Shown here piece by piece: positions 9,947 to 17,581 of a DNA stretch of 42,574 nucleotides. The translations under genes were made by a program, and so were the position numbers. The stretch is from contig CASESV010000004.1 of the NCBI GenBank assembly GCA_949290735.1, forward strand, positions 1 through 42,574, in the 5' to 3' direction. The DNA comes from an uncultured Mycoplasmataceae bacterium (GTDB lineage: Bacteria > Bacillota_I > Bacilli_A > Mycoplasmatales > Mycoplasmoidaceae). Within the stretch, counting starts at the first letter, position 1; each line of letters opens with the position of its first letter. The notes beneath the pieces are model-generated. The model was not told where the DNA came from and made no database searches. It saw nothing but the letters and a program-made list of their open reading frames with translations.

Positions 9947-10887
9947 TTATTTATTTTGTTCTTTATTTCATTCTAAATTTTCTGGACATGAAATAACTTC
10001 TTCTACAGAATATTTTTCAAGCACATATGTTAAATAGTTAGTAAGATTAAATTCTATTCCTATTTGATCACTACTTTCAGGGATATTAGTAATTAAATTT
10101 TCAAAACTATCTAATTTATAATTTGCTGATTTAATTTTTTCAATGACTTCATTTTTATTTGCAATCGAATAAATTGTAAAAAGATTTAATACCGAATTAC
10201 TTATTTTATTGTAAATGTAATAGCTACATACATTTTCTCCATAAACACCAATTTTGTTTTCTAAATAACTTATTTGATGTTTATTATTTCCGGCTGTTTG
10301 AAAAATTAAGCAATTGCCTAATTTATTACAAACTTCATTGATTAATAATTTCTTATCAATAAGTGGATATTGCTTATATAGTTTGTTTATTGTTGTTATA
10401 TTTATTTTTTTAGGAATTTTTATCCCATATTGTTGAATAGTTTTTAACTCATTTAATTTTTTAATTAGAAGTGCAGCTAAATTATTTATTTTTGTTTCAT
10501 TTATCTCAGCTAATAGATATTTAATTTGCAATGTATAACTAAAACTGTATGAAGCGATATTAGGATTAACTTGAATGTCTCTATTTAAATTACTATGATA
10601 GCAAATAACGCCCATTCCAGGTTCTAATTCGAAATCCTTAACTAATTTAATTAAATAATTATTAATATATGGGGTTAATTCAATAATTCTGTTGGTTATA
10701 TTGTTATCAAAAGTAATGATTCTTTTATCTGAAAAATACTCATTAATATTACATGTAATTGGAGCATCAACATCTATCAGCTTAAACATATCATTAAACA
10801 TTTGATATATTTCTTTTTTGATATTTGAAATAATTTTTAATGTTTGTTGTCTATTATATTTAGCTATATAATCAGAATAAACCTTCA

Positions 10888-12877: not shown

Positions 12878-12953
12878 TGGTGCACCATACAGGATTCAAA
12901 CCTGTGACCCATTGATTAAGAGTCAATTGCTCTACCAGCTGAGCTAATGGTGC
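12878..12953 (-). tRNA. tRNA-Lys (anticodon CTT)
   Basis: A full cloverleaf is visible on the minus strand. The 7-bp acceptor GCACCAT/ATGGTGC carries discriminator A and an encoded CCA. The D-arm is GCTC...GAGC, the anticodon stem ATTGA/TCAAT holds loop CTCTTAA (anticodon CTT, codon AAG), and the T-arm ACAGG/CCTGT holds TTTGAAT. The 76 bases include CCA. It lies just upstream of the 138-aa gene and lysS. Confidence 0.97.
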
Positions 12954-12978: not shown

Positions 12979-13035
12979 CTAAAAAAATAATATTATAAAT
13001 TGAATTTTTGAAAATTATGGAGAGGTAATAGAAAA

Positions 13036-13057
13036 TAATAAGGCACTAGCCTTATTA
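13036..13057 (-). terminator. Rho-independent terminator after the 128-aa membrane-protein gene
   Basis: A perfect 9-bp stem (TAATAAGGC / GCCTTATTA, loop ACTA) is followed by TTTTC on the minus strand, 35 bases past the stop codon of the gene at 13092-13478. Confidence 0.85.
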
Positions 13058-13091
13058 TCAAAATAAATCTGTAATTTAATTTTATTGTTGG

Positions 13092-13478
13092 CTACTTGCT
13101 AGAACCTAGAGTTTTTGTTGCCTTGATTCCAAAAATTAATGAGCCAATTGGACCAAGAATTAATAAAGTTAATATACCTCATAATGTTTTATCATTTTTT
13201 AATGATTCATCTTTTCAATCAGTTGCAAGAATTCTAATTGCATTAACTAAAGTCATTATTCCTGATACAAGTGCTGCAATAACTATTAATACTACTCCAA
13301 TTATTAATTGAGCTATATTAAGTGATGCTTCTTGATAATCACCAAAATAAGGATCATAATATTCTGTAACACCAACTGATGTAACAGCAACTACAACCCC
13401 TATAATGATTAATATCACCATTAAAATTGCGACAATAGATGTAATCTTAATACTCTTTGCTTTTTTAGCTAAATCCAT
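13092..13478 (-). CDS. Small polytopic membrane protein under a poly-A promoter
   Basis: This 128-aa protein has three to four hydrophobic helices: IVAILMVILIIIGVVVAVTS, then LIIGVVLIVIAALVSGIMTL, and a C-terminal pair around LTLLILGPIGSLIFGI. A short acidic/Tyr-rich external loop (EYYDPYFGDYQ) lies between the first two. One TGA (Trp) joins the C-terminal third; the stop is TAG 13092-13094. The site AAAGGGA precedes ATG 13478. Its promoter carries 17 consecutive A residues directly upstream of the -10, and a terminator follows, so expression is independent and possibly phase-variable. I do not know the family; similar small membrane proteins with a DPYFG-type loop are common in mycoplasmas. 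Confidence 0.75.
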
Positions 13479-13502: not shown

Positions 13503-13535
13503 ATTATATCTTTTTTTTTTTTTTTTTGAAAGTAA
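13503..13535 (-). promoter_or_regulatory. Promoter with 17-A homopolymer spacer
   Basis: On the minus strand a consensus -10 TATAAT (13503-13508) is preceded by GA and an uninterrupted run of 17 A (13511-13527). Upstream lies a TTACTTTC-type stretch that could act as the -35. The start codon is 25 bases downstream of the -10. Slippage in the tract would change the -35/-10 spacing, as known for the vlp genes of Mycoplasma hyorhinis. Confidence 0.6.
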
Positions 13536-13612
13536 AGTAAATTAAACATATCCCCTAATATAAGACAAAATATTTTTGTTAAACTATGAATATTTATTTA
13601 ATATTTTTTAGA

Positions 13613-16600
13613 TTAAACTGATTCCTTGTAATTTTCTAATAAATCTTCACCATATAAATCATTTAATCTTCTATCATATGTATAGAATTTAGGTTGATCT
13701 TTATCAGTATTTGAATTTGCTGTAGTTTTATATGATGTGTTTGCAAAATATCAATTCATTGCTGCAATAAAGAAAGCATCAGCACTAGTTCCTAAAAAAT
13801 TATCACTTGCTACTGTTGTTCAATTGATACCAACATCATTATCATCTAATATACTATCACCATTTGTATCAAATAATTTAATAACATCATATTGATTAAA
13901 TTGAGTGAAGACAACTTGAGATAATACTGCTCCAGGTGTATCAACATCACCAAAGTACATTGAACTTGAATTAAATAATGATGAATCTGTTGCTAAAATT
14001 GATCCAACATTTCTTTCAAATAATGTATCAGGAATTTTAGTTTGATTATCTCTAACAATTTTTATTAAATCTTCTCTTGCGTTTGATAATTTATCTTGTC
14101 TAACATCATTAGTATTAATATCAAAAGAATCATTTAGTCATTTTTGAGTTTTAATAACAGCATCTCATGTATAAATACCATTTTCCATTTCTTTAATTAA
14201 ATTCTCTCTAGACCCAATATTGTACATTGAACCTTTATTAGTTGGTTCAGCACTTTCATCATCCGTTCTATTGTAGACATAAAGATCAGATGAAAACATT
14301 TTAGTTAAAGCATCAGATGGAATATCAGTGCTTGTTGATGACTCAAACACCATTCCTTGGAATCCAACATAGTTTTGTGATCCTTTTGTAACTGGAGCAG
14401 TTGTATAGTATGACGTATTATCATTAAAAGTAAAATCAGTTTTAAAATAATCTCCGTCTTTATAATTAGTTAAGACACCATTTAAACCTTGATAAATATA
14501 CCCATGAATATCTGTAGATTGAGCATTATATTTTTTAAGTGAAAATTTTTGATCTGTAGTTAAATCACTATATCCTTTAATCAAATCATTTCTTTCTTCA
14601 TTAACTCATACAAAGGCTGCTTTTTTATTATTATCTGTTTGTTGAATTAAATAATTTTTAAATTTAGTAAATTCATATTGATTAGTTTCAGGATTATAAT
14701 CAAATGCATATTTTAAACCAATAACTTCTTGAATAAAGTCAAGAGCATTTGTGCTATATGGATCTTTCAAAATTGTTTTAATTCAATTTAATCTAGCTAA
14801 TTGATATAATCCATCTATATCTAATGCTTCAGTTCCTTGATATTGAGCTAATTCAGCTGTTGCTAAACTTAACTTTTTAATAGTATCATATGATTTTTGT
14901 AAATAATAGTTAACAAAATCAGTACTATTTTCTTGTGATGTAGGTATAGCAGGAGTAGCTTTCATTTCTGTTAAAGATTGATATGAATTTGTTAATGCAA
15001 AGTTATTGGCATCAAAAACTGATTGAGTTGTTGCTTTAGCATCAGAACTATGTGATCTTGTGCTTTCAATTTCTTGATAATTTATTTCAGCTAAACTTCT
15101 TTGAAGTTGAACTATACTTTTAACTGTTTCTAGATTACCAGTTACTCAATTATTTAATGTTTGATTTAATATTTCATAATCATCAGCATAATACATTGAT
15201 GATGTTGGGTTTTGTGAACCAACTAAAACATATTGGTTATATTTAGCAGAAGAATATGTAAGTTTTTTTAAAATTAAGTTTGATGCAAAATTAGTTGTAT
15301 ATAAAGTATTAACACTTTCTGACACAGCATCTAATTTCTCTTTTAATCCTGAATTTGTAAATTTAGTTGATCCATCTAAATTTTCAAATAATGATAATGA
15401 ATTATACATCCCATATGTTTCATCTACATATGCTTCATTTTTTCAAGTAACAGATGAGCTGTTTTTTGTATCATCCCTTTTATATGGTTGCATCGCCCCA
15501 ATTCCATTTGAAACAACAGAATTACCATAATTTTTATTAACTAAAGTATTAGTGTTTTGGAGTTCAAGAATTTTAGTTTTAACGGTTGATGAATGATCTA
15601 TTTGATTTTTATAATCTACATAGGCAATGAATTTATTAATGTAATCATTATAAATACTTGTACTTAATGACAATGTAGTTGGAATAGAAGTGAAATTGCT
15701 ACTAAAAATATATTCTTCAGGTTTTGGTTTATTTTGTTCATTAGCACTTTCAGCATTACATATATATTTAAAAAGTAATTTATCTCTATTATTTGTATAA
15801 TAATTTTTAATTTCAGTTTCTAAGTCTAATGATGTAAATCCATTGTTTAAATAATTAGAATCATTCATTCCAGCTTTAACAAGGATGTATCTTCATAATA
15901 ACGTGTTTGCAATTTCGTTAATTTTACCTTCATAACTACTAGCTGCTTTTATTTTTTCATAACGATCTATACCAATAATATGAACCCCAGATTCATTTCT
16001 AGTAAGAATAAAAGGGGTATTTTGAATATTAACTGTGTCAGTAACAGCTTTTACACCATTATAAAAACCTTTAAAATTAAATTGAGCATCATCATTAATT
16101 CCAGCTTGGATAGCTGCAGGAAGTGTTACATATCCTGTAGTTGCAGAAGTACTCATAAAATTTGACATAATTTCAGTTCCAGATAAACCGTTTAGCCCTG
16201 TTTTTAATGCTGTTGCAACTGGAACATTACTATCACTAATTCCTAATAATTCATTAAATTTGTATGTTGCTCCTGCTGCATATTGTGTATATGATGTGTT
16301 GAAAACTGAATTAGACCCACCTGATAATTTAATAAAATACAATGTAGCAGAATCATCAGTATATTTAACTGGAATATTTATTCCTCCAGTATTACCTAAA
16401 ATAAATTCATTTTTATAATTATTATTAAATGACTTAGCAAATGAGTTATACTTATCTGTTGCATTAATAGTAACATTACCATCAGGTGAAGATGTTATAG
16501 ACGATTTAACAGGAAATGCTTGTCAATCATATGATGCAGTAATGGATACACCACTTGAACTACCTGAATCACCACTATCAGAAGAACCATCGCTTGATGA

Positions 16601-17581
16601 ATCTCCTGAAGAATCACTTGAAGACGAATCATCTCTAGTTTGGATTGAACGTGTAGATAAATTAGAATATGTACCACTATAGATTTGATTTATTTTTTCA
16701 GTATTAAAAAATGAGTAACCATTATATGAGACAGTTGATGGATCAACATGTTTTCATAATGTCATTGAGGTAATTAATGGTAATTCAGCTTTAACTCATT
16801 CCATAAAAACAAATTCTTGAAATTTAGCTTTAGCTAAAGATGTAGCATCTAATTCTATTTGTGTTTTTGATGGCTGAAAAACTATATTATTTCTTGTTCC
16901 ATCTCCATCTTTACCATTAACTAATTGCTCAGATATAAGATATTCTTGAATAGATGGTGTTAATGTAGAGAAAGATGTAATAACATCTGAGCCATCTTTT
17001 CTCATAGCATTAATATAGTAATTTGAAAACATAAAATCATCAAATGCAGTATTAACATTTGCAATCAATTTATTTCGTTTTCAATCTGATTCATTCCCAC
17101 CTACAGGATCCAAAACTTGTAATTGGAAATAATACTCTCAATTACTACCGTATTGTTTTTTATAGTTTGAAACTTCTGTATCTCATTGCTCATTAATGCT
17201 ATCAATTCACTCATCATATCTTTCTTCATAAGCTGCAGAATTTTTATAATTTTTTCAAAATTCAATAATGTAATTGCTAACAAGTCCAGAAATAACTTTG
17301 TTAAATCCCGTTTCAGAATTTAATGCTTTTTTTGAAAAATCTTCAATACTTTGCATTTTTTGAGAATACGGTAAATCAGCTAAATCTGTTAATTCTTGAT
17401 TAAGTTCATATTTTTGAAAATTACCATTTCCTTCACTTGGTTTTACTTGTTTAGTAACCAAACTATCAAGTGATTGTCTAGATAATAATGGAGGAATAAA
17501 AACACCAAGTAGTGCCCCTGCAACTGTTGCTAGCACTACACCTGTTACTACTCCTAAAGCAATTTTTCTTGACTTTTTCAT
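13613..17581 (-). CDS. Large membrane-anchored surface protein, 1322 aa
   Basis: One frame joined by many TGA (Trp) codons runs from ATG 17581 to TAA 13613-13615. ATG 17581 is chosen over TTG 17587 because AAGG lies 8 bases upstream. The N-terminus MKKSRKIALGVVTGVVLATV is a signal anchor without a lipobox Cys, so the rest should face outward. A Ser/Asp/Gly-rich linker occupies about 317-345. Residues 1238-1249 (DTNGDSILDDND) match an EF-hand-like Ca2+ loop. The middle part is helical, and LTRNESGVHIIGIDRYE faintly recalls the end of parvulin-type foldase domains, which is too weak to name it. It is transcribed alone, divergently from sufC. Possible roles are adhesin, surface chaperone or nuclease-type protein; none is shown by the sequence. 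Confidence 0.85.

Follow-up and report, generated by a model that had tools for sequence, protein, structure and literature searches.

A run of 17 adenines (A17) abutting the -10 box of a gene for a 128-aa membrane protein, in the genome of an uncultured member of the Mycoplasmataceae, is best read as a slippage-variable promoter like those of the Mycoplasma hyorhinis vlp genes, a reading to which we give a probability of about 0.6. The tract probably belongs with a few other slippage switches in this genome, a type familiar from mycoplasmas. It lies in a stretch of 42,574 nt (hereafter the window) from a source genome of 1.06 Mb in 61 contigs, estimated to be 95.6% complete, whose contigs are cited below as G000:C18, C48 and so on; the features discussed are collected in Table 1.

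Table 1. Features of the A17 locus and of the tracts compared with it. Unless another contig or genome is named, positions are those of the window; the C26, C27, C33 and C45 tracts are given as read on the coding strand.
Feature	Position	Strand	Details
tRNA-Lys, downstream of the 128-aa gene	12878..12953	-	
Terminator-like hairpin after the 128-aa gene	13034..13059	-	11 pairs, 3 G-C
128-aa polytopic membrane protein gene	13092..13478	-	Translation table 4, TGA=Trp
-10 hexamer TATAAT, exact consensus	13503..13508	-	2 nt past tract (intervening GA)
A17 homopolymer	13511..13527	-	T17 on + strand; exact count, 17 uninterrupted
TTCAAA, best-spaced -35 candidate, weak	13525..13530	-	4/6, spacer 16, overlaps tract
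TTTACT, alternative -35-like	13531..13536	-	4/6, spacer 22 at A17; hand count
IS3-family right-end remnant	13538..13578	-	10 bp upstream of tract
DUF3713 protein gene (PF12506), upstream	13613..17581	-	
C26 tract	G000:C26		T16-GCTTTGTGT-TATATT, in front of one member of a tandem pair of small membrane proteins
C27 tract	G000:C27		TTGC-T19-GA-TATATT (coding strand), upstream of UDP-sugar dehydrogenase-like ORF
C33 tract	G000:C33, about 10179-10202		A14-G10 just before ATG of large exported-looking protein
C45, first tract	G000:C45		TTGACT-TGC-T16-ACAATA (= TTGACT-TGC-T15-TACAAT), upstream of 96-aa ORF
C45, second tract	G000:C45		TTG-T16-GAAA-TAGAAT (TTGTTT-17-TAGAAT), upstream of helicase-like protein
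(TA) repeats	G000:C48, 1743-1759 and 2349-2365		Promoters of small membrane proteins
Lipoprotein array	G006:C1, 953000-1013900		A9-A20 before conserved -10 region

The anatomy of the promoter is clear on its downstream side. The first-pass annotation had described a TATAAT preceded by an uninterrupted A17, and both elements are present exactly, letter for letter, on the minus strand. Read along that strand the order is ...TTTACTTTACTTTC-A17-GA-TATAAT-GAAATTGAAAGGGAATGGTAAAAA-ATG, with 24 nt between the -10 hexamer and the ATG of the 128-aa gene, a span that includes a probable Shine-Dalgarno (SD) motif, AAAGGG. The same annotation had set the tract between a -10 and a -35, which holds for the -10 side but is weak on the other. 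The upstream edge of the tract lies 19 nt from the -10 box, and no good -35 is found at normal spacing: TTCAAA is the sole normally spaced hexamer and overlaps the tract, while TTTACT would come to a spacer of 17 only at A12. A promoter scan of the region returned 10 promoter-like sites, against 10.1 expected from shuffled sequence. The lack of a clear -35 at normal spacing counts against a slippage switch and lends support to its main rival. On that view the tract belongs to the fixed structure of the promoter, as a stiff or bent A-tract or one that melts easily beside the -10 box, expression is constant and any drift in length is of no consequence; nor does the sequence offer a good -35 at a distance that a changing tract could adjust. 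We nevertheless consider a constant structural element unlikely, for most genes in the source genome do without any such tract, and the length distribution of long runs, together with paralogous promoters in a relative (both described below), speaks against it.

The A17 tract is not a product of chance. Pattern searches over the contigs found exactly six A/T runs of at least 11 nt in the whole genome, with lengths of 14, 16, 16, 16, 17 and 19, and since the six places are the same whether the search threshold is set at 11, 13 or 14 nt, there are no runs of 11-13. Every other A/T run in the window is of 9 nt or fewer. Extrapolating the decay of short runs to 1.06 Mb leads one to expect about 0.02-1.2 runs of at least 14 and fewer than 0.1 of at least 17, and the other five genomes of its genus contain 0 or 1 run of at least 13 each. 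Nothing points more strongly than the gap at 11-13 to the long tracts being a separate, maintained class. A structural element whose length drifts without consequence does not sit easily with six runs of 14-19 and none of 11-13. The gap also bears on the possibility that the count of 17 is partly an artefact of sequencing or assembly and that the true tract is shorter or mixed: homopolymers are error-prone and the assembly is in 61 contigs, but such errors would neither favour promoters for long runs nor leave lengths of 11-13 empty, and two genomes assembled as single contigs (G006, G029) contain comparable tracts. We therefore regard an artefact as very improbable.

Five of the six long tracts, sorted after the data had been seen, adjoin a -10-like hexamer facing a gene. 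By way of background, an exact TATAAT lies at most 5 nt downstream of 16 of the 1134 ordinary A/T runs of at least 5 nt in the window (about 1.4%); for hexamers matching at five of six positions the background is about 11%, so that any single tract besides A17 is weak evidence when taken alone. The two tandem small membrane proteins on C26 begin MGFWGKTAKIAS... and MSFWGKTAKIAS..., and the promoter of the second copy carries no tract. Repeats of another type point the same way: (TA) units repeated at least seven times occur at only two places in the genome, both on the 3.3-kb contig C48, in near-identical cassettes of the form TTGACA..(AT)n..CTTATTAATGG (more fully TTGACA..(AT)n..CTTATTAATGGTCTTA..CCATT..AAGGAG) whose spacing differs by 2 nt. 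Behind one of the two C48 genes lies an 85-aa paralogue of the 128-aa window protein, 53% identical to it in alignment, and the other C48 protein has a YDPYxGxY stretch in common with the window protein. From their arrangement, these (TA) promoters are candidates for switches like that of M. mycoides vmm.

Tracts of guanine were also seen in this low-GC genome, where there are only four G runs of at least 7 nt. The UDP-sugar dehydrogenase-like ORF on C27 (G000:C27 692-806) has a G8 within its first codons in addition to its upstream T19, an arrangement in which a double switch, of transcription and of frame, is possible. A G10 (following the A14 on C33) and a G7 (C15, about 17948) each end about 8-9 nt before an ATG, at SD distance, and the genes behind both encode exported-looking proteins; these two runs are possible translational switches. 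A G9 run lies between two ORFs on C28 (G000:C28, about 9524). That the six A/T tracts, the two TA repeats and possibly the G tracts that lie at ribosome-binding-site distance are independent slippage switches, and that homopolymer switches are a general and repeatedly evolved form of surface-gene control in the family, is a proposal we make tentatively and at somewhat less than even odds.

Such tracts would be expected to vary in a cell that cannot repair slippage. No match to the MutS_V domain was found in the 95.6%-complete source genome, with controls positive in 11 of 14 genomes. To our knowledge mollicutes in general are without MutS repair, so the missing match is permissive for tract instability rather than specific to it. 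Length variation of the same architecture is present among paralogous promoters in relatives. In a tandem array of lipoprotein genes in one single-contig genome of the family (G006), 16 promoters have a conserved flank in common, GCCCTT (mostly GCCCTTGGCTAAAAT), while their A-tracts measure 9, 14-18 or 20 nt, with a mode of 17; paralogous promoters that keep identical flanks and differ in tract length count against a fixed structural element. One of the array lipoproteins was compared with Pfam and gave no match. In a second relative (G022, contigs C1 and C3), TTGC(G)-T16-20-(G)GTTA(T/A)AAT precedes paralogous exported proteins. The window resembles both in having an A- or T-tract, mostly of 14-20 nt, directly before the -10, and differs in that its gene stands alone at the locus, whereas the relatives have multi-gene lipoprotein or exported families.

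In a search of 95 family genomes, T runs of at least 13 with TATAAT 0-8 nt downstream gave 84 raw matches and the reversed pattern 30; the equivalent A-tract search gave 28, and its control 19, overlapping offsets inflating pattern and control alike in both. The enrichment for T-tracts is clear. That for A-tracts is slight and counts against a slippage switch. Among fetched loci, with the window gene counted in, membrane or export proteins make up 11 of 18 tract-linked genes as against 33 of 127 other TATAAT-led genes (p=0.004). A search for a second strain yielded one chance gammaproteobacterium match in genome contigs and none in viral contigs.

The gene behind the tract is, as first described, that of a small membrane protein: the 128-aa ORF has several hydrophobic segments. 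A terminator of its own had also been claimed, and the hairpin that follows the gene is the one terminator-like site in the 1.2 kb scanned, where 0.2 were expected. Three genomes (G003, G004, G016) have homologues of 30-53% identity in tandem, and a fourth (G001) has them at two places; all share the conserved segment TDWKxxxLxxDKxLWGILTLxxLGPIxSLIF. No tract was found upstream of these homologues in the other genomes, which counts against a slippage switch. The protein has no secure Pfam family: LiaI-LiaF-TM_PspC (PF22571) scores a marginal 28.1 bits against a cut-off of 27 and matches only 2 of 12 homologues. The M. penetrans paralogue family 26 (MpPF26, PF07666) was rejected, at 16.1 bits over residues 58-119 against a curated cut-off of 37.2, so that any likeness, judged from these scores, is at most a distant resemblance. 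Membership of the Vlp surface lipoproteins is ruled out, since the protein is polytopic and, having no Cys, can have no lipobox. It may be exposed at the cell surface and could have a role in interaction with the host.

The ground upstream of the promoter has been disturbed. The IS3 remnant beside the tract, which the first-pass annotation did not mention, retains the last codons (QKYFVLY-stop) and the terminal inverted repeat of the right end, and is 93% identical to a copy at G000:C18 (about 14825-16133), of which the window keeps the right end only. That parent, the only near-intact IS3 copy found, has rve (49.7 bits) and HTH_21 (44 bits) domains, inverted ends, and best matches among IS3 family transposases. 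In two relatives (G001, G005) the DUF3713 gene is followed by two tRNA genes (by eye tRNA-Ile and tRNA-Ala) rather than by the 128-aa gene, which implies that the gene moved in or that the locus was rearranged. Neither a terminator-like site nor unusual folding was found between the DUF3713 and 128-aa genes; read-through is therefore possible and could blunt any switch. These circumstances allow another account, in which the A-run grew neutrally at a decayed IS3 scar, 10 bp from the remnant and at a rearranged site, and most transcription of the gene comes from polymerase reading through from DUF3713. Neutral growth should, however, have produced some tracts of 11-13 nt and others lying outside promoters, neither of which was found, and an incidental run would hardly lie 2 nt from an exact TATAAT with a normal leader and SD motif. 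We judge this account improbable; like the assembly artefact, it is less likely than a constant structural element.

Comparison with characterised systems offers both precedent and caution. The accounts of Citti and Wise (1995) summarised in PMC10502178 and PMC2268961 describe a poly-A promoter tract in M. hyorhinis vlp, and the vlp, maa2 and vmm genes provide known cases of promoter spacers made of poly-A or of dinucleotide repeats (PMC10502178; PMC2268961). The analogy with vlp drawn in the annotation stands as regards a homopolymeric A tract beside the -10 of a membrane-protein promoter and the slippage proposed for it. It fails for the product, which is a polytopic membrane protein and not a Vlp-like lipoprotein, and for the setting: a single gene with no vlp cassette, no lipobox and no clear -35. 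In M. mycoides vmm a dinucleotide repeat forms the promoter spacer (PMC10502178); the two C48 promoters are of this type, while the A17 tract resembles it in role but is mononucleotide. In Ca. Mycoplasma girerdii, repeat-length variation at the level of a natural population has been read from metagenomic data (PMC5476646); those tracts are mostly dinucleotide repeats with frameshifts predicted within ORFs, unlike that of the window, and only two of the length-variable ones are homopolymers. One must also consider M. agalactiae vpma, in which a T-tract just upstream of the -10 of a surface-protein promoter, placed like the A17 homopolymer, was shown not to switch, expression varying instead through Xer1 inversion (PMC2268961). 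Here a tract placed just as A17 is provides a direct counter-example, favouring a structural element, and it is a warning against reading switching from anatomy. The annotation's suggestion of phase-variable expression thus draws strength from the outlying tract, the promoter positions of the long runs, the missing MutS match and the variable lipoprotein arrays of the family, and loses some to the lack of a clear -35, the tract-free homologues and the vpma precedent.

If the preferred reading, a slippage-variable promoter, is correct, A17 would serve a sigma-A-type promoter as a spacer prone to slippage. Replication slippage by the polymerase would alter the number of adenines and go uncorrected in a genome that appears to be without MutS, and the number of adenines would in turn determine how far the -10 lies from upstream contacts, and in what helical phase, so that transcription of the 128-aa protein gene may go up or down in individual lineages. 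Both the variation in length at A17 and its effect on transcription are inferences. The tract would then be one member of a repeat-controlled promoter set, comprising A/T, TA and perhaps G tracts, that may serve membrane, exported and some other genes; the G006 array would be well suited to examining how it works.

Promoter inversion (mpl) and GAA-repeat (vlhA) systems are known in the M. penetrans family, and homopolymer switches, if they are as general as tentatively proposed here, would stand beside them. For uncultured mollicutes, where sequence may be all there is, long homopolymers next to -10 boxes single out a short, testable list of genes that are candidates for phase variation. Were these candidates confirmed by variation among reads, the vlp-type mechanism would reach a family in which inversion of promoters and control by GAA repeats are the best-known systems, and its targets would include small polytopic membrane proteins as well as lipoproteins.
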